Assembly: GCF_003609605.1 (NCBI RefSeq)
Contig: NZ_MCHY01000008.1
Span: forward strand, 186,001-250,000
Direction: 5' to 3'
DNA: 64,000 nucleotides
DNA from: Ammoniphilus oxalaticus
Lineage (GTDB): Bacteria > Bacillota > Bacilli > Aneurinibacillales > RAOX-1
The notes under the pieces were generated by a model that ran no database searches, was not told where the DNA came from, and saw only the letters and a program-made list of their open reading frames with translations. Within the stretch, counting starts at the first letter, position 1, and each line of letters begins with the position of its first letter. A program made the position numbers and the translations under genes. Of the stretch, positions 27,766 to 39,363 are shown one piece after another.

Positions 27766-27775
27766 TCGATCCCTC
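27744..27775 (-). terminator. Terminator of sigK (minus strand)
   Basis: GAGGGATC (27751-27758) with GATCCCTC (27768-27775); read on the minus strand it is followed by six T (complement of 27745-27750). It overlaps the 3' end of pbpI. Confidence 0.7.
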
Positions 27776-27786
27776 TCTGAATCAAG

Positions 27787-28075
27787 TTAATCTTGTTGTT
27801 CGCGTGGTTTCCTATAAAACTCGTTGAACAGTTTCATTAACGCTCTTTTTTCAATTCTTGAAACATAAGATCTCGAAATGCCAAGTTCTTTTGCAATCTC
27901 ACGTTGTGTTTTCTCTTCTTGTGTTTCCAATCCGAAGCGACCGATAATAACTTCTCTTTCTCGTTCATCAAGAATGTGAATATGTTGATATATTTTGCTC
28001 TTTTCAATTTGTAATTGCACTTGATCCAGCACATCGTTTATATCTGTTCCGAGTACATCGATTAAGCTTATTTCA
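27787..28075 (-). pseudogene. sigK: sigK 3' segment (sigma-K C-terminal part), separated by the inserted element
   Basis: Encodes the last 94 or so residues of the mother-cell sporulation sigma factor sigma-K, from [13 protein letters not shown] to the C-terminus, including region 4 with [20 protein letters not shown] (helix-turn-helix). There is no start codon with a ribosome binding site: this is the downstream part of a split gene, not a free gene. It is marked pseudogene only because it is interrupted in this DNA. Joined to 32054-32479 by deletion of 28072-32053 it gives one in-frame protein of about 236 residues. Confidence 0.95.
28072..28075. other. Left attachment core of the sigK-intervening element
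   Basis: TTCA at 28072-28075 equals TTCA at 32054-32057. Reading across from either copy restores the sigma-K frame DKEGNE-ISLID. The shared core is short, as expected for a large serine recombinase that exchanges at a 2-bp overlap. Confidence 0.75.
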
Positions 28076-28107
28076 ATTAGATGCGCGGTTTATCTGTATG
28101 GGTTGGG

Positions 28108-29664
28108 TTATTGGGGAATTTTGGGGTAAAGCACCAATGTGAAGTGATCATTGCTCTGTTCTTTCTCTTTCGTATAAATTGCATAATTAAGGACAGATTT
28201 CAGGAGGTTGTTTTTATCCGCTGGATCATCCGAGTGATTGTAAAGCGCAAGAATTTGTTCAAAATTTGGAATGAAATCTTTTTTAACTTTTAGACGCTGC
28301 TTTTCAGCTTGCAAATCTTTTTTTGCCTCTGCAATGGCCGCGTTCGTATTTTCAATTCGTTTGGTAAGTTGTTTAGCTCTTTCTAGATACGTAGGTTCAT
28401 CATAGATGCCCTTTTCTAAAAGGTCATGTAGGCGGTTTTTTTGGTTGTTTACTTCATCCAATTCACGTTCAAGCGTTCGCAGCGCCTTCTCTTTAATTTT
28501 AAATGTTTGATTTGGGTCATTTTGCTGATGATGTTCAATCCAGGTCGTCCAATCCGCTTTATAATCACGAAGCCAGTCTGTTAAAGCATGTATCAAACGT
28601 TGTTCTACATAGGTAAACCGACTGCTTTTCGTTGGGCATTGCGTATTGTAACAAATGAGGTGCGGTTGTTGTCTTGTATACGCGCGTAAGACCATCGCTC
28701 CATTGCAAAGACCACATTTGATTAAGCCGGCCAATGGGTTTGTTAGTCGATTGGTTACTTGATAAGGAACATGGTAGCGACGTTTTAGAATATTTTGCGC
28801 CTTCTGATATTGCTCCACAGAAATGAGCGGAGCATGTTTACCTTCGACATCAATCCATTCCTCTCGAGGTCTTGTTCTTGTTTCATATGCGACCCCTGGC
28901 TCGGTAGCCTTTACTGTCTCTCTTTTTTTCCATTGGATTCGACCGATATAAACAGCGTTTTTTATAATATTTAAGACAGCTGATGAGGTCCAACGTCTGC
29001 CTGTATAAGAGGTATGGCCTAACCGATTCAACTCGTTCGCAATTCGATTTCCTCCCATTCGAACGCGCGGATCGTCATGTGTGTACCAGTCGTAAATTAG
29101 TTTTACAATCGGGGCCTGATCAGGATGTGGAACAAGCGCGCGTTCTTTTTCCGTTTTATGGATGACATATCCATAAGGAGGATGGGCCCCAATGTAATTT
29201 CCATCTTTTACAGATTGAACTCGACCTCGTTGCATCCTTCGTGTAATTACTTTGAGTTCACGCCGCGCCATAAAGGCTTCAAATTCTGTGTATTCCTCAT
29301 CCCATTCGTTATCTAGGTCGTAAACTTTGTTAGGGGTAATAATTTTTGTTTTCGATGTTTTGAAAGCGCGTAAGATCGTCCCTTGATCGATCATATCGCC
29401 GCGACCTAATCGATCAATATCCATGACTAACACTGCATCAAATAGTTGATCTTCCACCGCCCTAAGTAGCTTCATCGCTTCAGGTCGATCCATAATTCGT
29501 TCTCCCGACACAACTTCTTCAAAAATTTGTATCACTTGTAATTTCATTTGATTGGCAACTGAGATTAGTTGACGTCGGTGTTTTGTAAGCGTCTCGCCTT
29601 CCCCGCGCGCCTCAGCTTCTAGATCGGCTCTTGATTTACGTAAATAAATCGCGATTCGTTCCAT
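28108..29664 (-). CDS. spoIVCA: Large serine recombinase, SpoIVCA type
   Basis: About 518 residues. N-terminal resolvase domain (about 1-150) with the catalytic serine in IYLRKSRAD and VMDIDRLGRGD; then the recombinase domain (about 165-270, GAHPPYGYV), a zinc beta ribbon with CGLCNGAM and a later CYNTQC, and a coiled coil (about 400-460). It would catalyse site-specific excision of the element and rebuild sigK. Start set at ATG 29664 with GAGGAGG upstream. It is the gene nearest the left end and is transcribed in the same direction as sigK. Confidence 0.95.
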   Translation of the reverse strand: MERIAIYLRKSRADLEAEARGEGETLTKHRRQLISVANQMKLQVIQIFEEVVSGERIMDRPEAMKLLRAVEDQLFDAVLVMDIDRLGRGDMIDQGTILRAFKTSKTKIITPNKVYDLDNEWDEEYTEFEAFMARRELKVITRRMQRGRVQSVKDGNYIGAHPPYGYVIHKTEKERALVPHPDQAPIVKLIYDWYTHDDPRVRMGGNRIANELNRLGHTSYTGRRWTSSAVLNIIKNAVYIGRIQWKKRETVKATEPGVAYETRTRPREEWIDVEGKHAPLISVEQYQKAQNILKRRYHVPYQVTNRLTNPLAGLIKCGLCNGAMVLRAYTRQQPHLICYNTQCPTKSSRFTYVEQRLIHALTDWLRDYKADWTTWIEHHQQNDPNQTFKIKEKALRTLERELDEVNNQKNRLHDLLEKGIYDEPTYLERAKQLTKRIENTNAAIAEAKKDLQAEKQRLKVKKDFIPNFEQILALYNHSDDPADKNNLLKSVLNYAIYTKEKEQSNDHFTLVLYPKIPQ

Positions 29665-29927
29665 CGTCACCCTCCTCTAAGATGTAGACTTGGCTAGACA
29701 TTCCTTTAGTAGATATTATGATGAAAAGAAGATGACCATTCATGAGTTGACATAGCCAGTCTGTCTGAGAGCGATGCTTCGTTGTTCGTAGTCGAGATTG
29801 TCATTTATAAAACAATGATTGATGTTAGTTGAATTTTTTTATATTATCATAATTATAAAAGAAGGTGGTAAGGACGTTCTTCTTATAACGTGGCAAGCAT
29901 ACATTTTGTTTCAGAGGTGATAAATGC

Positions 29928-30098
29928 ATGCGGGAACGGGAACAAAATTATGATGCCACATACCATGTTGGAAACACGAGGGTCTACGTTGTGGCCCCAA
30001 CTGTCACAAACGAAGAGAAAAGCCGCGTCCTTGCTAACTTTCATCAAGCTGGTTGGAACATCCTTGAAAAACTACATCGGGAGGAAGCGAGGGAGTAG
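29928..30098 (+). CDS. Small conserved-looking protein encoded beside the recombinase
   Basis: 56 residues starting MREREQNYDATYHVGN, then a beta-strand-like TRVYVVAP, a TNEEKSR helix start and NFHQAGWNILEKL. I recall similar small proteins (pattern VGNTxVxVVAPPP...EyHxAGW) near integrases in Bacillaceae but know no function. AGAGGTG lies 8 nt before the ATG at 29928. Divergent from the recombinase, with about 260 bp between them that should hold both promoters. It could be an excision accessory (directionality) factor, which is inference. Confidence 0.75.
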   Translation: MREREQNYDATYHVGNTRVYVVAPTVTNEEKSRVLANFHQAGWNILEKLHREEARE

Positions 30099-30219
30099 CG
30101 TTAGCATCGACAATAATTCTGTCAATTTAGAAAATAAAAAAGATTTGACATTTTCGTGAAGTTGATTATAATTACTTATAACATATTGAAAAAGTGAATA
30201 AGCTTTTTAACGTAATTTG

Positions 30220-30256
30220 GAGGAGCCTGTCACCAAGGCTCCTCTATGCGTTTTTT
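30220..30256 (+). terminator. Intrinsic terminator after the 56-residue gene
   Basis: GAGGAGCC (30220-30227) with GGCTCCTC (30237-30244), then a T-run at 30251-30256 after a 6-nt gap. Lies in the 326-bp gap before the antiporter gene. Confidence 0.6.
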
Positions 30257-30298
30257 AGAAAGCTATTCCATTTTACTAAATAAAAGAGGGGAGGGATC

Positions 30299-30328
30299 AT
30301 GTATGAAGCGCGCATAATGCGCTTATAA
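30299..30328 (+). other. Possible 9-codon leader ORF before the antiporter gene
   Basis: GAGGGGAGGGATC immediately precedes ATG 30299, a strong ribosome binding site, but the frame encodes only MYEARIMRL. The codons themselves form a small hairpin (AAGCGC with GCGCTT). An ACCTC just after it could pair with the GAGGT of the antiporter ribosome binding site. This suggests a leader peptide with translational control, which is inference. Confidence 0.35.
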
Positions 30329-30424
30329 CACCTCAGTTTTCGTTTCGTTGAAACCGCTACCAATCCCGTGTGTATAACCTTGCTCTGATTTATTCCGAAA
30401 ATAATGTATAGGAGGTAATATGCT

Positions 30425-31594
30425 TTGGTAATAGAATTCATACTACAAATTTCGATTGTTTTACTTGCAACTAAAATTGCTGGTCATATAAGTGTTCGAT
30501 TAGGGCAGCCGTCTGTATTAGGTAAAATTATCATTGGTATTATTATAGGACCGGCCTTGCTTGGTTGGATCCAAGATACACAAATTATCGCTGTGTTTAG
30601 TCAGATCGGTGTTCTTTTATTAATGTTCTTAGCAGGTTTGGAGACAGATTTAGATGATTTAAGTAAAAGCGCGAAGTCCGCTTTGTTAATCGCGCTTGGC
30701 GGTGTTATCCTGCCGATCGCTATGGGCTACGCGGGATCGCAAGTGTTCGGTTTTTCAACAGGCGCATCCATATTCATGGGATTGTTATTAGCGGCTACTT
30801 CAGTTAGTATATCGGTTCAAACGTTAAGAGAGCTCGGCTGGTTGAATACAAAGGAAGGTTCTGCATTACTAGGCGCTGCCGTATTGGATGATGTGATTGT
30901 TGTTATTCTAATTGCGGTTGCAATGGGCTTCTTTGGTGAAGGAGATGCCAATATTGGATGGCTTCTCGGACAGCAAGTCATATTCTTTGTTGTCATTTTT
31001 GCAGTTGCTAAATTGTTGTTGCCTAAATTTATTCAGTTATTTGCTAACTTCCAGGTAACGGAGGTTACTTTAAGCGCCGGACTCATTATCGCTTTTGCTT
31101 TTGCGTATTTTGGAGAAATGCTTGGAGTTGCGGGAATTATCGGTACATTCTTTGCGGGTATTGCTATCTCTACAACGAAATTCAAAAAGGAAATTGAACA
31201 GAAGACTGAACCGATTGCAAATGGAATTTTTGTTCCGTTCTTCTTTGTCAGCATCGGGTTGCCTGTTACATTTCAAGGAATCGGCAATCAAATAGGATTT
31301 TTAGTTATCTTTTCGGTGATCGCGTTAGTGTCCAAGTTTGTCGGCTGTGGTCTTGGCGCGAAGCTTTCAGGATTTAGCATGAGATCTTCCATGGGGATTG
31401 GCTCTGGGATGATATCAAGAGGTGAGGTTGCCCTAATCTTAGCGGCAATGGGATTAAGTAGTGGTTTAATACCTGCTGAATATTATACCTCAGTCATTAT
31501 TGTAGTCATCTTGACGACATTAGTCACACCTCCATTGTTGAAAATCTTCTTTGGAACCCGAACTGAAGATGCGGACAGTGAAGTAGCTATGTAG
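30425..31594 (+). CDS. CPA2-family cation/proton antiporter (NapA/GerN type)
   Basis: 389-residue integral membrane protein with about 12-13 helices. It has the CPA2 pattern: LGKIIIGIIIGPALLG, FLAGLETDLDDL, ATSVSISVQTLRELG and the ion-binding motif AAVLDDVIVV with the Asp-Asp pair (about residues 158-159). Length and sequence resemble NapA and GerN, the latter a Na+/H+-K+ antiporter needed for inosine-triggered spore germination in B. cereus. There is no C-terminal TrkA-N domain. Start is TTG 30425, 9 nt after GGAGG; the nearer ATG at 30420 is out of frame and stops at once. Cargo of the sigK element. Confidence 0.9.
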   Translation: MVIEFILQISIVLLATKIAGHISVRLGQPSVLGKIIIGIIIGPALLGWIQDTQIIAVFSQIGVLLLMFLAGLETDLDDLSKSAKSALLIALGGVILPIAMGYAGSQVFGFSTGASIFMGLLLAATSVSISVQTLRELGWLNTKEGSALLGAAVLDDVIVVILIAVAMGFFGEGDANIGWLLGQQVIFFVVIFAVAKLLLPKFIQLFANFQVTEVTLSAGLIIAFAFAYFGEMLGVAGIIGTFFAGIAISTTKFKKEIEQKTEPIANGIFVPFFFVSIGLPVTFQGIGNQIGFLVIFSVIALVSKFVGCGLGAKLSGFSMRSSMGIGSGMISRGEVALILAAMGLSSGLIPAEYYTSVIIVVILTTLVTPPLLKIFFGTRTEDADSEVAM

Positions 31595-31675
31595 TAAACG
31601 AAATCTCGTATAACCTGGTCAGATGAAATTAAACGAACAATCTAGGTGACTTTATAAATGAAAGGTAGATATTAT

Positions 31676-31987
31676 ATGCCAACATGCCAAAGTTGTAAAA
31701 GAAAGTGGACTTGGAAAGAAACAATAAAAACATCGCTAGCTTTAAAAGATAGTAGCATGAACTGTCCACATTGTAGTAAGCTACAATACTTAACGGCAAA
31801 ATCAAAAAAAAGAAGCACCATGAGTATGTTTTTTATTATTGCTCCACTTGCTATATTTTTTAACGACTCACCTTTCATTGGCTTAGTAGCTTTAATTGTG
31901 ACTTGTTTGTTGTTTATGGGAATTTGGCCGTTTTTAATTGAGTTGTCAAATAAAAAGGAATCGCTTCGTTCCAATTCTAAATCTTAA
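31676..31987 (+). CDS. Small CxxC...CxxC membrane protein (TIGR04104-like)
   Basis: About 103 residues. The N-terminus MPTCQSCKRKWTWKE and NCPHCSKLQYLTAKSKK form a CxxC-n-CxxC zinc ribbon typical of the cxxc_20_cxxc family; two transmembrane helices follow (about residues 43-58 and 65-85). Function unknown. Start chosen at ATG 31676 (homologues begin MPxC); an ATG at 31658 in frame is also possible. Last gene of the element, followed by a terminator. Confidence 0.78.
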   Translation: MPTCQSCKRKWTWKETIKTSLALKDSSMNCPHCSKLQYLTAKSKKRSTMSMFFIIAPLAIFFNDSPFIGLVALIVTCLLFMGIWPFLIELSNKKESLRSNSKS

Positions 31988-32000
31988 TATTCGATCGTTG

Positions 32001-32029
32001 CCTTCGACGCCTGCGTCGGAGGTTTTTTT
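32001..32029 (+). terminator. Terminator at the right end of the element
   Basis: CCTTCGACGC (32001-32010) with GCGTCGGAGG (32013-32022) and seven T. It may insulate sigK from transcription of the cargo genes. Confidence 0.82.
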
Positions 32030-32053
32030 GTACATGTAAAGCGTTGATGTTTA

Positions 32054-32057
32054 TTCA
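32054..32057. other. Right attachment core of the sigK-intervening element
   Basis: TTCA matching 28072-28075. On the minus strand the sigK frame reads GGT AAT GAA and then meets TAA inside the element (32051-32053). Confidence 0.75.
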
Positions 32058-32479
32058 TTACCTTCCTTGTCTGTGCCAATCGGATCGTGTAAGGAAACAT
32101 CCTTTCGTGTCTTCTTCAATGAACGCAAATGCATTAGGATCTCGTTCTCGATACAGCGGGCTGCATAAGTAGCTAATTTTGTCCCCTTATTTGTTTTGTA
32201 ACTTTCGATAGCCTTAATGAGCCCGATCGTACCGATTGAAATCAAGTCTTCGCTGTCTTCGCCTGTGTTTTCAAATTTCTTAACAATGTGAGCAACAAGG
32301 CGTAGATTGTGCTCGATCAACATATTCCTGGCAAATTCGTCTCCGCCCTCCAGCTTTTGTAAATACTTTAATTCATCATCATCGGGAAGTGGTTGTGGGA
32401 AGGCATTGTTCTTAATGTACGAGATAAAAAGAACCAACTCTTTAACGAATAAAGAGATGGCTGTTAAAAATCCAGGCAA
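32054..32479 (-). pseudogene. sigK: sigK 5' segment (sigma-K N-terminal part), separated by the inserted element
   Basis: Encodes residues 1 to about 142 of pro-sigma-K: a hydrophobic pro-sequence ([20 protein letters not shown]), then KNNAFPQPL and region 2 ([19 protein letters not shown] and [14 protein letters not shown]). Sequence is very close to B. subtilis SigK and ends at [11 protein letters not shown] before a stop inside the element. Start is probably TTG 32479, 6 nt after GGAGGTG; the in-frame ATG at 32497 lies within this ribosome binding site region. The gene is functional only after excision; it is not decayed. Confidence 0.95.
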
Positions 32480-32564
32480 GGCTTTCACCTCCAACATAGG
32501 GAACTGATATAAGCCTATGTGATGAACAATTTGTCCGTGCCTGTACAGCCCAAATTAAATCTAT

Positions 32565-32604
32565 TTATGCGCGCGCATACGTGATGCGGTATGTGTGCGC
32601 ATAG
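32565..32604. promoter_or_regulatory. Long imperfect palindrome upstream of the copper chaperone gene
   Basis: TGCGCGCGCATAC (32568-32580) and GTATGTGTGCGCA (32589-32601) pair with G-T wobbles and extend by two to three A-T or G-T pairs. It lies between the divergent sigK and copZ-like starts. It may be an operator or a sigK leader structure; no T-run follows on either strand. Confidence 0.4.
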
Positions 32605-32660
32605 GGTGTGAACATGTTAATATAGAAGCGAATAAATGAAAAGAAAGGGGGATGAAAAGA

Positions 32661-35059: not shown

Positions 35060-36670
35060 ATGGGTATTGATATGACACAAGTCGGCCTTCCGGAACTGTC
35101 GATGCTAACATGGTTATTGGCCGCTTCACCAATTGCGCTTGTCCTAATTCTAATGATGGGTTTTAAAATGAGCGGAGCTCGCGCAGGTGTAATTGCGTGG
35201 ATATTGGCAATGGGGGTTACATTCTTCGCCTTCGGCGGTGGAATTGATGTACTTGCAAACGGTTCAGCGAAAGGACTTTGGACGACGATCTTTGTACTCT
35301 GTATCATCTGGGGTTCGATGTACATGTATAACATCGTTGATCTAACGGGCAGTTTTAAAGTCATTGCCGCAACCTTTACGAGGATGACAAATGGAAATCA
35401 ATTGTTGCAAATATTGATTCTCGGTTGGGCGTTCCCAACATTCATTCAAGGAGTTTGTGGTTTCGGTGTTCCCGTTGCAGTGGCTACCCCACTCTTAATC
35501 GGTCTTGGTTTTAGCCCTGTTAAAGCAGTTATTACGACTTTACTCGGGCACTCATGGGGTGTTACGTTTGGTTCCTTAGGATCATCCTACTCCATTCTAA
35601 TTTCACTAAGCCCAGTTGATCCTAGTGGAATGGCATTTTGGGGATCGATCTTGATTGCCTTTGGCGGATTAATTGTTGGCTTCTGTATTTTACACAATTA
35701 CGGCGGATTCAAAGCTTTTAAAGAAGGGTTTTTAGCGGCTCTGTTCATGGGGCTTGTTATGAGTACAACGATGATCATCACTTGTACTTTCATTTCACCA
35801 AACGTTGGTTGTTTCGTATCCGGGATTGTGGGACTGATTGCGGGAAGCTTTATTTTACCTAAACTTCCAGCTTATCGTCCAGCGCCAGACGCGGCTCCAA
35901 TTGAAGAAGATCCAGAAGTTAAAGGAAAATCTTTTGTTACTGCCTTCTCAGCGTATATCATTATGATCGGTGTTGTGTTTACGATTTACCTCATTGGCCC
36001 AATTAAGAAGTACTTGGATCAGTTTACAGTGGGACTTCCATTCGGGGAAACAAGTACAGCTTACGGTTACCTAGAGGAAGCCGCCGCTAAGTTTTCCGCT
36101 TTGAAAGTCTTTACAATGCCAGGAACGCTCATTATCATTTCTATTGTTCTAGCCGCTTCTTTCTATAAATCCAAAGGGCTTTTGCCTCAAGGCGCAATGA
36201 AGGAAGCTTGGGAGAGAACATTGAAACAATCTTTAGGGGCAACGGCTACAATTATTGCAATGACAATGATGGCGGTATTGATGACAGTCAGTGGCATGAC
36301 AACGTATCTCGCTTACGGTATTGCCGTAACTACGGGTGAGTTGTTCCCGTTATTATCTCCATTTATCGGAGTGTTAGGGGCGTTTGTAACAAGCTCGAAT
36401 ACTTCCGCAAACATTTTGTTTACAGGATTGCAATATGAGGTAGCAAGTATCTTAAGTATCTCGGCATTCATTATTTTGGCGGCTCAAACGACCGGGGCAG
36501 CTCTCGCGAATTCCTTTGCTCCAGCTAACGCAGCGCTTGGTACAGGTGTTGCTGGAATCGCCGGACAAGAGGGAGAAATCCTGAAAGTAACCGGGGTGTA
36601 TAACATCTTGCAAGGGATTCTCGTCGGTATTCTTACATTCGTATTAATAAAACTCGGGTTAGGTATATAA
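35060..36670 (+). CDS. LctP-family (lactate/glycolate) permease, copy 1
   Basis: 536-residue polytopic membrane protein of the L-lactate permease family (TC 2.A.14), with about 12-14 hydrophobic helices. Family-typical stretches are ILGWAFPTFIQGVCGFGVP, GHSWGVTFGSLGSSYS and VTSSNTSANILF. Members take up lactate or glycolate with protons; the substrate here is not determinable. Start ATG 35060 follows AGGAGGT. Near-identical in most positions to copy 2 and more distant from copy 3. A 72-residue membrane protein follows after 13 bp. Confidence 0.88.
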   Translation: MGIDMTQVGLPELSMLTWLLAASPIALVLILMMGFKMSGARAGVIAWILAMGVTFFAFGGGIDVLANGSAKGLWTTIFVLCIIWGSMYMYNIVDLTGSFKVIAATFTRMTNGNQLLQILILGWAFPTFIQGVCGFGVPVAVATPLLIGLGFSPVKAVITTLLGHSWGVTFGSLGSSYSILISLSPVDPSGMAFWGSILIAFGGLIVGFCILHNYGGFKAFKEGFLAALFMGLVMSTTMIITCTFISPNVGCFVSGIVGLIAGSFILPKLPAYRPAPDAAPIEEDPEVKGKSFVTAFSAYIIMIGVVFTIYLIGPIKKYLDQFTVGLPFGETSTAYGYLEEAAAKFSALKVFTMPGTLIIISIVLAASFYKSKGLLPQGAMKEAWERTLKQSLGATATIIAMTMMAVLMTVSGMTTYLAYGIAVTTGELFPLLSPFIGVLGAFVTSSNTSANILFTGLQYEVASILSISAFIILAAQTTGAALANSFAPANAALGTGVAGIAGQEGEILKVTGVYNILQGILVGILTFVLIKLGLGI

Positions 36671-36683
36671 GGAGGTTGTTAGA

Positions 36684-36902
36684 ATGAGTGTACAAGAATT
36701 AGCTGAAAAGCGACTAGAGGAAGCGCCGGTTAAGCAAGTTAAAAAAGATAAAGTTGTCCAACAAAAACTATTTAGTGTAATATTCATTTGGATTGCGTTT
36801 ATCGCTTTGTATTTTGCAGTCAGCAGTGGTAGTGATGCGGTGATGTGGGGTGGTTTAGGACTTACCGTTGTTGCCGCAGCGGTCCTGTTTCTGAGAAATT
36901 AA
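36684..36902 (+). CDS. Small membrane protein paired with permease copy 1
   Basis: 72 residues: a charged, Lys/Glu-rich N-terminus (about 1-28) with DKVVQQK, then two hydrophobic segments, FSVIFIWIAFIALYFAVSSG and MWGGLGLTVVAAAVLFL, ending RN. Each of the three permease genes has one such partner directly downstream, so it is probably a subunit or stabiliser of the transporter. I know no named family. Confidence 0.82.
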   Translation: MSVQELAEKRLEEAPVKQVKKDKVVQQKLFSVIFIWIAFIALYFAVSSGSDAVMWGGLGLTVVAAAVLFLRN

Positions 36903-36911
36903 TTCGTTTAG

Positions 36912-36945
36912 CACCCCCTTGAGGTTATCCTCAGGGGGTGTTTTT
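36912..36945 (+). terminator. Terminator of permease module 1
   Basis: CACCCCCTTGAGG (36912-36924) with CCTCAGGGGGTG (36929-36940), then five T. Confidence 0.92.
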
Positions 36946-37250
36946 AAATTGCAACAATTATTTTTTGTTGAGTTTGTCGAATTTATTTTAAACATATGGC
37001 GATAAGTAACTTACCAAAAAACTGTTTAAAAAAAAGATATATTAATTTTGGGAGCGTTTGTTTGGATATGTGAAATGCGCAATAAAAATTATGATAAAAT
37101 TACTTATCTAAATCAATTGATTGGGCAAGATGTATAAATCATTAAGTGGTAACAAATACCCAGACGCCGATTATTAATCAGATAATAGTAACTTTTCAGA
37201 ATCTTTGTAAGGTTATAAAGATAATGAACAGGCAGAACATTGCGAAAAAT

Positions 37251-37320
37251 GTCGACAGATTTCCCTAGGCTTACAATAAAAAAAATGTTAACATCAATTT
37301 ACAAATTCCCAACTTGCATA
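37251..37320 (+). promoter_or_regulatory. Conserved promoter-like block of permease module 2
   Basis: GTCGACAGATTTCCCTAGGC, then TGTTAACATC and TTACAAATTCCCAACTTGC, aligned with the blocks at 34430 and 39850. The 850-bp gap 36903-37752 holds this block, the cre-like site and an AT-rich leader; I see no gene in it. Confidence 0.58.
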
Positions 37321-37460
37321 AACATGATTTTAAACATCTCTAAATCAAAAATCTTAAAGTCAGAATATGTTGGGAAAAATAATGGATGGGAGGCGAAGCG
37401 GCGGTAACATTTGAATACTAGATGAATAGTAGGGTCGTTGCTTTTGGTGCTTTCTGATTA

Positions 37461-37474
37461 TGAAAACGCTTTTT
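37461..37474 (+). promoter_or_regulatory. cre-like CcpA site in leader 2
   Basis: TGAAAACGCTTTTT, 210 bp downstream of the conserved block; matches the cre pattern and the sites in leaders 1 and 3. Confidence 0.6.
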
Positions 37475-37752
37475 TAAAGAAAATGTTGAGATCTAAGGCA
37501 AGATGAGTGGGACGGAATCGCGCTACCGATCAAGGATTCAGAAATAATAATGTTCATGAAATGACAGTTGAAAGCCCTTTCTCTGAGGGTGATATTGAGT
37601 TTATGCCATTTTTTTTTATCTTTTGAGGTGGCGACATAATCTTTTCGAGCCAAGACAGAGATGCATCTTGATAGCGTTGGCATTCTTTTATTTTAAATTT
37701 TCTAAATCTTTTAAAGATGATAAATATTGGGATATATTATTAGGAGGTACTT

Positions 37753-39363
37753 ATGGGTATTGATATGTCAACAGTCGGCCTACCGGAACTGTCGATGCTT
37801 ACGTGGTTATTGGCAGCTTCTCCAATCGCGCTTGTGCTAGTTTTAATGATGGCATTTAAAATGAGCGGGGCTCGCGCGGGTGTTATTGCCTGGGTATTGG
37901 CGATGGGGGTTACGTTCTTTGCATTCGGCGGCGGAATTGATGTTTTAGCAAACGGTTCAGCGAAAGGTTTATGGACAACGATTTTTGTACTCTTTATTAT
38001 TTGGGGTTCCATGTACATGTATAACGTCGTTGATTTAACAGGTAGTTTTAAAGTCATTGCGGCGACGTTTACAAGACTAACAAACGGAAATCAATTGTTG
38101 CAATTATTAATTCTTGGTTGGGCATTCCCGACATTCATTCAAGGAGTATGTGGATTTGGTGTACCCGTTGCGGTTGCAACTCCACTATTGATTGGTCTAG
38201 GTTTTAGCCCGATTAAAGCTGTTATTACAACATTACTTGGTCACTCATGGGGTGTTACGTTTGGTTCCTTAGGATCATCCTACTCCATTCTTACATCATT
38301 AACGCCAGTTGACCCTGACGGGATGGCATTCTGGGGATCGATCTCGATTGCTTTCGGCGGATTAATTGTTGGTTTCTGTATTTTGCACAACTACGGTGGA
38401 TTCAAAGCTTTTAAAGATGGATTTGTCGCAACTCTTTTCATGGGCGTTGTGATGAGTACTACGATGATCTTAACTTGCGCTTTTATTTCACCAAACGTTG
38501 GTTGTTTCGCATCTGGAATCGTGGGACTGATCGCGGGAAGCTTTATTTTACCAAAACTTCCAGCTTATCGCCCAGCGCCAAACGCAGCTCCAATTGAAGA
38601 AGATCCAGAAGTAAGAGGGAAATCGTTCGTTACAGCTTTCTCGGCTTATATCATTATGATCGGTGTTGTATTCGTTATTTACTTGATCGGTCCAATTAAA
38701 AAATTCTTGGATAAGTATACGGTGGGTCTTCCGTTTTCAGAGACTGTAACAGGTTTCGGTTACCTTGAAGAAGCCGCCACTAAATTTTCGGCCCTAAAAG
38801 TATTTACGATGCCAGGTACTTTAATAGTAATTTCCATTATCTTTGCTGCTCTTTTCTATAAGTCAAAAGGACTTTTACCTAAAGGAGCAATGGGTGAGGC
38901 ATGGCAACGAACACTAAAACAGTCTTTAGGAGCAACGGCTACGATCATTGCAATGACTATGATGGCTGTATTGATGACGGTGAGTGGAATGACAACGTAT
39001 CTTGCTTATGGTATTGCGGTAACAACGGGAGAAATGTTCCCAGTTCTATCACCATTCATTGGAATCTTGGGGGCATTCGTAACGAGTTCCAACACGTCAG
39101 CAAATATTTTGTTTACAACGTTACAATATGAAGTTGCAAATATTTTAAGTATCTCTGCTTTCATTATTTTGGCGGCTCAAACAACAGGGGCAGCGCTTGC
39201 GAATTCCTTTGCTCCAGCGAATGCGGCTCTTGGAACAGGTGTAGCTGGAATTGCCGGTCAAGAAGGAGAAATTCTGAAAGTAACGGGTGTTTACAACATC
39301 TTACAAGGAATTCTCGTTGGTATATTAACATTTGTGCTAATTAAACTCGGCTTAGGTGTCTAG
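37753..39363 (+). CDS. LctP-family (lactate/glycolate) permease, copy 2
   Basis: 536 residues, collinear with copy 1 with only scattered changes (for example MSTVGLPELSM against MTQVGLPELSM at the N-terminus). Same family motifs (GVCGFGVP, GHSWGVTFGSLGSSYS). AGGAGGT lies 7 nt before the ATG. The close similarity and equal length of copies 1 and 2 point to a fairly recent duplication of the whole module including leader and partner gene. Confidence 0.88.
   Translation: MGIDMSTVGLPELSMLTWLLAASPIALVLVLMMAFKMSGARAGVIAWVLAMGVTFFAFGGGIDVLANGSAKGLWTTIFVLFIIWGSMYMYNVVDLTGSFKVIAATFTRLTNGNQLLQLLILGWAFPTFIQGVCGFGVPVAVATPLLIGLGFSPIKAVITTLLGHSWGVTFGSLGSSYSILTSLTPVDPDGMAFWGSISIAFGGLIVGFCILHNYGGFKAFKDGFVATLFMGVVMSTTMILTCAFISPNVGCFASGIVGLIAGSFILPKLPAYRPAPNAAPIEEDPEVRGKSFVTAFSAYIIMIGVVFVIYLIGPIKKFLDKYTVGLPFSETVTGFGYLEEAATKFSALKVFTMPGTLIVISIIFAALFYKSKGLLPKGAMGEAWQRTLKQSLGATATIIAMTMMAVLMTVSGMTTYLAYGIAVTTGEMFPVLSPFIGILGAFVTSSNTSANILFTTLQYEVANILSISAFIILAAQTTGAALANSFAPANAALGTGVAGIAGQEGEILKVTGVYNILQGILVGILTFVLIKLGLGV

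Follow-up and report, generated by a model that had tools for sequence, protein, structure and literature searches.

The sequence analysed here (the window) is a stretch of 64,000 nucleotides of Ammoniphilus oxalaticus (contig NZ_MCHY01000008.1, positions 186,001 to 250,000), and we consider its sigma factor gene sigK, which lies in two parts on either side of an element of about 4 kb. The element encodes a large serine recombinase, a small divergently oriented protein, a cation/proton antiporter and a zinc-ribbon protein, and its ends resemble the attachment (att) sites of a site-specific recombination system. As read from the sequence, sigK is split in frame by this element, in the manner of the skin element of Bacillus subtilis. 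Coordinates are given in Table 1.

Table 1. Features of the interrupted sigK locus, in positions of the window
Feature	Position	Strand	Description
sigK 3' part	27787..28080	-	...EISLID to the stop at 27787; joined frame entered at the core, 28075
3'-side att site	28073..28097	-	arm ACAGATAA (28097-28090, no mismatch) and core ATTGA (28077-28073; differs from AATGA in one base)
Intervening element	28075..32057	none	3,982 bp separating both copies of the shared TGAA
Large serine recombinase	28108..29670	-	520 aa from GTG; 518 aa from ATG at 29664 behind AGGAGG
-10-like box CATACATT	29898..29905	+	CATA to ATG of the small gene, 26 nt; taken by us to be of mother-cell type
56-aa protein gene	29928..30098	+	divergent from the recombinase; candidate recombination directionality factor
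CPA2-type cation/proton antiporter	30425..31594	+	389 aa; cargo
Small zinc-ribbon protein (TIGR04104)	31658..31987	+	hydrophobic C-terminal half; cargo
Terminator-like hairpin and T run	31999..32030	+	end of the cargo genes, adjoining the 5'-side att arm; read by eye
5'-side att site	32032..32059	-	core AATGA (32059-32055) and arm TTACATGT (32039-32032; 2 mismatches to TTATCTGT)
sigK 5' part	32051..32497	-	codons 1-147, to GNE; begins at 32497, stop just beyond the junction

Shared words of 3-8 bases were tested as joining points of the two sigK parts. Only TGAA (32057/28075) and its sub-words restored the full 242-aa SigK, with an offset of 3,982 bp and the joined frame ...DKEGNEISLID.... An earlier note, made from the letters of this DNA alone, had placed the halves at this distance with an in-frame join at DKEGNE-ISLID, which the TGAA splice bears out. 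On the minus strand, the translation of the 5' part ends ...GTDKEGNE and then meets a stop; the gene is broken after codon 147 and its remainder lies at 28074-27787, so that removing the element restores one in-frame sigK, as in skin-type elements. Pfam finds Sigma70_r2 in the 5' part and Sigma70_r4 in the 3' part, and both halves are open with no decay seen. The joined protein retains an N-terminal stretch that we take to be pro-sequence-like, and therefore, by analogy with B. subtilis, excision would be one lock alongside proteolytic activation. A second intact sigK elsewhere in the genome would, according to the note, have spoken against its reading, and it had proposed a comparison with sister strains. 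The genome assembly comprises 3.32 Mb in 13 contigs, with a completeness of 99.93%. At E<=1e-18 the joined SigK matched its two halves (99%) and one paralogue at 48% identity, which by our own reading appears SigE-like; no second sigK was found in the 13 contigs by this search or with the 5' half alone. In 3/3 other family genomes examined sigK is uninterrupted, at 88-89% identity.

For comparison, sigK was surveyed in 299 genomes, an even class-level draw that includes the window's own, and 209 of these gave a sigK match. Breaks recur near codons 74, 124 and 147 (sites 1, 2 and 3; genomes and loci carry G and L numbers below), and the window is broken at site 3. Its att design is common to 17 other 5'-side and 19 other 3'-side junctions at this site: on the 5' side TTATCTGT comes after AATGA at a constant spacing, and on the 3' side ACAGATAA stands 12 bases ahead of AATGA. 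With the window included, the arm occurs within two mismatches at one fixed offset in 16 of the 18 5'-sides and 16 of the 20 3'-sides, a count that omits two 3'-sides (L046, L062) filed as intact by the script and by eye both within two mismatches. At the other offsets tried (20 and 24) there were at most 0 matches on 5'-sides and 1 on 3'-sides. The junction is not due to chance, because the arms at its ends are conserved and regularly spaced. Combined, the arms give an attP of 48 bp that is nearly palindromic and has the GA of AATGA at its centre, which is the usual form of a serine-integrase site. The window has the repeated short core and the inverted arms (TGAA common to both ends, ACAGATAA exact and TTACATGT with two mismatches); its two cores differ by one base, with TGA common and AATGA complete at just one end. 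A join at GA gives back GGT AAT GAA ATA, and the predicted rejoined sigK junction reads GGTAATGAAATAAGC. AATGA is also described as the core of the B. subtilis skin and of three B. cereus strains (PMC10745906).

The reading frame of the recombinase is open over its full length, as for a complete large serine recombinase, with Resolvase and Recombinase domains above cut-off and the zinc-ribbon domain just below it. It carries a YLRKS stretch, which we take to be the active-site motif. Among PHROGs families, phrog_95 (integrase, E 1.2e-108) and phrog_125 (invertase) match convincingly, and the closest solved structures are SPbeta YokA (E 1.7e-48) and a YokA-YotN fusion (E 2.6e-48), YotN presumably being SprB, the directionality factor of the SPbeta integrase. 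The predicted structure model has a predicted TM-score (pTM) of 0.38. We placed 44 recombinases of sigK elements in a tree, and these fall into one group per site (site 1, n=10, support 99/99; site 2, n=17, 99/97; site 3, n=17 including the window, 100/100), a grouping reproduced by shuffled labels in 0/500, with the caveat that some long branches meet. The window recombinase belongs to a group of site-3 members only (17/17 rows), where its nearest row is G069 at 61% identity. Judged by this tree, each recurrent sigK site is served by its own recombinase clade, and the window's clade occurs only at site 3 among the sampled sigK elements. Two arrangements are seen at site 3: the recombinase lies on the sigK strand beside the 3' part in the window, L031, L054, L062 and L072, and is convergent with the 5' part in L009, L019, L036, L045, L059, L063 and L064. 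The recombinase of Halalkalibacter wakoensis (57%) also adjoins a sigK 5' part.

The earlier note had counted three cargo genes beside the recombinase; two of them stand as cargo, and the third (29928-30098) probably belongs to the excision kit. Homologues of this small gene occur in 17/20 site-3 elements by tblastn with three seed proteins (seeds included). A hidden Markov model (HMM) from their alignment, whose input sequences cover 17 of the 19 loci found, raises this to 19/20; the two additions, L038 and L059/L086, are weak matches, and that of L038 partly overlaps antisense recombinase DNA. The same model finds no small gene in 23 loci with only site-1 or site-2 parts (about 244 kb; 24 control loci less L069, where roughly 8 kb come from a site-3 element). 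Among the 80 best viral contigs with a related recombinase, many of them near-copies, 52 carry the small gene on the strand opposite the recombinase and 18 have a sigK match. By eye, a second small open reading frame (ORF) resembling the 56-aa family lies near the first in the H. wakoensis locus (L009 5479-5712).

Upstream of the small genes of sigK elements we inspected possible promoters. The pattern CATA-three bases-T precedes 11/20 of them (2.05 expected), and it was replaced by GTCC-N13/14-CATA, which was picked after inspecting those same sequences and precedes 17/20 vs 0.06 expected from shuffles, so that the latter comparison is post hoc. In sigK elements the distance from the CATA box, with GTCC ahead of it, to the start of the small gene is 21-26 nt, and the motif can be seen conserved in site-3 loci such as L021, L036 and L063. 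In viral contigs, some of them near-copies, it stands before 6/9 small genes beside a sigK match and 6/45 others. The CATA -10 box is common to sigmaE and sigmaK, and the window retains GCATACATT at its relatives' spacing. The AlphaFold model of the small protein is a beta hairpin with a long helix (pTM 0.43; predicted local distance difference test, pLDDT, 85.5). Because the gene is linked to site-3 recombinases and their phage relatives, has a shared motif upstream and is of the size of known factors, we consider the 56-aa protein a likely recombination directionality factor. Skr has 64 aa (PMC6957869) and CD1234 has 72 aa (PMC5025042), and such factors are described as all different (PMC10747680).

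Turning to the rest of the element, the antiporter matches Pfam Na_H_Exchanger with 254 bits and TIGR00932 (CPA2) with 235.7 bits, just below the cut-off of 238.3, and the zinc-ribbon protein matches TIGR04104 with 65.6 bits (cut-off 45). The GC content is 39.9% in the element vs 43.0% in the window. The host has an antiporter paralogue 78% identical to that of the element (G000 contig 1 104045-105196; L083 7040-8200), with no match to the recombinase or the small gene within 16 kb around it; therefore the cargo may come from the host lineage, with this paralogue as a possible source. By eye, the genes next to the paralogue are arsR-like and arsenite-pump-like. PHROGs searches with the element's four ORFs revealed no recognisable phage structural or replication gene; the ORFs other than the recombinase gave nothing or E>=0.018. 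A complete prophage was considered and rejected, as only the recombinase matches PHROGs convincingly. The relatives of the recombinase and of the small protein are phage genes, partly beside a sigK piece, and 104 phage records contain a related recombinase covering at least 80% of the query, all below 60% identity. One of these relatives is Thermoanaerobacterium phage THSA-485A, whose integrase is 50% identical to the window recombinase, with a small protein (40%) on the opposite strand. Its circular junction has AATGA between 19-bp inverted arms, like the window design, although THSA-485A is a 41.9-kb phage.

Taken together, we consider it likely that the window holds a sigK-intervening (skin-type) element that is phage-derived, has been reduced to near-minimum and would be excised in the mother cell. 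The proposal in the earlier note of a small skin-like element in sigK is supported by an AATGA core as in the B. subtilis skin, a site-specific recombinase clade, the att arms and the in-frame rejoining. The small protein would be made in the mother cell from a mother-cell promoter and would act as the directionality factor of the recombinase, which would recombine both att sites at the GA of AATGA. A circle of about 4 kb would be released and sigK rebuilt, while the spore line would keep the element. SpoIIID is encoded in the host genome (138 bits, cut-off 27). As to origin, a sigK-integrating temperate phage, or its recombination unit, may have lost its phage genes and gained the antiporter and the zinc-ribbon gene. 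No transfer genes were recognised in the element, and therefore it is probably inherited mainly vertically.

Several points weigh against this interpretation. We infer excision and its mother-cell timing, and assign the small protein's role through guilt by association. Neither a fold search of its model against solved structures nor Pfam, PHROGs and TIGR model searches gave a match to a solved fold or a convincing match to a named family. Its homologue was not found in the site-3 locus of G123 by tblastn or HMM, and was unmatched in 28/80 viral contigs within the DNA examined; in G133 roughly 50 kb separate the gene from the recombinase, both being on one strand, whereas elsewhere it is divergent and adjoins the recombinase or lies up to about 5.5 kb off. 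In the window, the GTCC motif is missing before the small gene at the spacing usual in relatives, inspection by eye revealed no promoter for the recombinase, and the att sites have diverged on each side (core ATTGA on the 3' side, arm TTACATGT on the 5' side).

The missing family and fold matches, and the place of the small gene among XRE regulator genes in phage THSA-485A, would fit a gene left over from a phage and serving otherwise, say as a regulator, in which case the recombinase would use another factor or none. This explanation is compatible with excision, and we hold it possible but doubtful in view of the linkage to the site-3 recombinase clade with absence from the 23 site-1/2-only loci, the conserved promoter-like motif upstream in sigK elements, and a size like those of Skr and CD1234. 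It is unlikely, in our judgement, that the element is a fossil which once excised but no longer does, whether because its att sites have diverged or because the recombinase is not expressed, so that sigK stays split for good and sporulation of the strain fails at a late stage. Such decay would fit the core and arm differences and the missing GTCC motif in the window, and the smallest site-3 relative (G011) has a recombinase broken between two frames; however, the window recombinase frame is uninterrupted from end to end, the sigK halves are likewise open with their sigma domains kept, and TGA is common to both cores. An assembly or contamination artefact is highly improbable, since the locus is far from the ends of its 962-kb contig and since other genomes, several of which are assembled as one contig (e.g. 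G010, G117, G292), show the same att pattern and recombinase clade, even if the genome is a draft of 13 contigs and sigK is inverted relative to its neighbours when compared with three relatives.

The element as interpreted here, a putatively excisable skin-type element, shares with the B. subtilis skin an interrupted sigK, the AATGA core (PMC10745906) and a large serine recombinase, SpoIVCA there; its small candidate factor would be the counterpart of Skr. Unlike the window's 3,982 bp, in which no phage structural gene was recognised, the B. subtilis skin is prophage-like and 48 kb long (PMC6957869); skr overlaps spoIVCA, whereas the window small gene is separate and divergent, a comparison made from published descriptions. 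The skin of Clostridioides difficile also intervenes in sigK, with recombinase CD1231 and a directionality factor, CD1234, under mother-cell control; it differs from the window in its 19 genes and a sigmaK without pro-sequence, and from the B. subtilis skin in site and orientation (PMC5025042). In the B. cereus group, the sigK insertions of AH820 (38,129 bp) and J7/J62 (39,036 bp) have the AATGA core in common with the window, and the 22-kb island IV is described as having no phage proteins, but lies at another sigK position (PMC10745906); these insertions are five to ten times larger than the window's. The gin element in gerE of B. cereus ATCC10987 is likewise non-phage, with a serine recombinase (GirC) and an extra factor (GirX), and is set apart by its description as a 28.6-kb element with three recombinases in another gene (PMC5595907). 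Integration in sigK beside a recombinase is also described for an Alicyclobacillus phage, MMB025, unlike the window at 105 kb and with a TCTC core (PMC13141910), and for the C. tetani site-A prophage, which is about 57 kb (PMC5553647). A degenerate 11-kb insertion has been published in kamA. The statement of the earlier note that known elements are prophage-like and much larger therefore applies to B. subtilis and C. difficile, but not to the 22-kb insertion without phage proteins, to the non-phage gin or to survey elements of about 2.4-3.5 kb. The sigK-intervening elements are a known kind, of which this one is a stripped member with unusual cargo and no recognised phage structural genes.

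We measured element sizes by splicing at shared cores. In increasing order these are 2,425 bp (G011), 2,771 (G054), 3,029 (G083), 3,288 (G117), 3,491 (G012), 3,982 (window), 5,642 (G292), 5,959 (G096), 6,179 (G176), 6,247 (G010), 6,650 (G054), 7,356 (G249), 7,763 (G083), 9,302 (G213), 9,377 (G127), 9,614 (G050), 10,553 (G292), 12,084 (G010), 14,220 (G117) and 16,469 (G263); the joins of G054, G083 and G176 are imprecise and their lengths approximate, and the list excludes G147, G203, G265 and the third piece of G249. Other gaps between sigK pieces reach about 59 and 65 kb. G203, with a 4.2-kb gap, was dropped as a small element, its 5' part being without codons 121-147 or so. The idea that the window element is uniquely small was rejected, as sigK elements of about 2.4-3.5 kb were found. 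Among the site-3 elements measured, only that of G011 is shorter, with a recombinase gene broken across two frames (L019 1843-3365); therefore, among the site-3 elements found whose recombinase is intact, the window's is the smallest. The sigK of G011 may be locked, or its frame break may be an error. The published elements whose sizes are given above are all larger, and we found no published sigK element as small in the open-access literature searched; a 2013 survey of intervening elements, outside that scope, may list small insertions. At 4 kb, an element that has a recombinase, a candidate directionality factor and att sites could be transferred in one piece to a laboratory strain and dissected, and such a compact system bears on what developmental excision needs and on why these elements persist after the loss of phage genes.

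The survey also gives a wider picture. We counted sigK as split where at least two separate pieces and no full-length copy were found, which applies to at least 45 of the 209 genomes, and to 9/15 genomes of the window's order and to 18/21 and 18/20 in two re-searched sets. The count leaves out G084 (diverged, intact), G180 (an intact copy and two pieces), G068, G089 and G239 (one piece each), and 18 genomes of family f4 (best E 1e-64 to 1e-71). In 34 of the 45, neighbouring pieces lie on one contig; the other 11 are drafts and could reflect contig breaks. Two or more breaks occur in at least 17 genomes (G004, G006, G008, G010, G013, G054, G083, G117, G136, G147, G175, G248, G265, G274, G283, G292 and G293), with all pieces on different contigs in G175 and G248 and some of them in G004, G013 and G136, while the assemblies of G010, G054, G117 and G292 each consist of one contig. 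Splicing both elements out of sigK in G010, G117 and G292 keeps the frame and yields SigK-length proteins of 233, 241 and 233 aa, respectively. Where sites 2 and 3 are both occupied, a mini-exon of about 33 codons (codons 119-151) is left between the elements (multi-element loci L021, L039, L052 and L053).

We somewhat favour the view that many Bacilli have a multiply interrupted sigK with three landing sites, each with its own recombinase lineage, where elements of about 2.4 kb to more than 50 kb would occupy two or three sites at once and two or three excisions (inversion in two genomes) would be needed for sigmaK. The smallest elements, the window's included, would then be phage-derived DNA-level 'introns' with little beyond a recombination unit. 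The survey suggests that sigK has repeatedly served phages, and what is left of them, as a target at several sites; in which order, and how faithfully, several excisions in one gene proceed could then be tested. No report of sigK in three or four pieces was found in the open-access literature searched, and the 2013 survey, again outside that scope, may list multiple insertions. In G265 sigK lies in four pieces with the last inverted (contig 1, 348428-373930; L037, L085, L038), so that recombination at site 3 would be predicted to invert, not excise, the intervening segment; the site-3 arms there are of the more diverged kind. G266 contig 1 also has two sigK pieces on opposite strands. An intact sigK with three 5' fragments and one 3' fragment nearby was seen in G007 (contig 1 1240500-1266000; L022, L023), intact sigK with extra fragments occurs also in G017, G072, G178 and G188, and by match counts G224 and G286 may be alike. 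Such fragments look like partial copies that elements carried in or left behind.

Finally, we compared the surroundings of sigK in the window and the three family relatives. The neighbours are shared in equal order and direction, with a penicillin-binding-protein gene on one side (about 7 kb from sigK in G003) and, on the opposite side, the genes found at 42.8-46 kb in the window. Relative to these neighbours, sigK with its element (window 27766-32650) is reversed in comparison with 3/3 relatives (L181, L182, L183) and appears to have been inverted in place; no inverted repeats bracketing the whole of sigK were found, so flanking repeats do not explain the apparent inversion. The host genome (G000) contains a second interrupted gene, yhbH (DUF444), which we assume to have a role in sporulation. 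A tail of yhbH lies at about 1220-1363 near the start of contig 8 (60% identity to the query), and phage-like genes, with functions judged by eye, occupy bases 1-37,000 of contig 13. The main part of yhbH (contig 13, about 35900-38500) adjoins a serine recombinase 39% identical to that of the window, and the wider recombinase family is therefore not confined to sigK.

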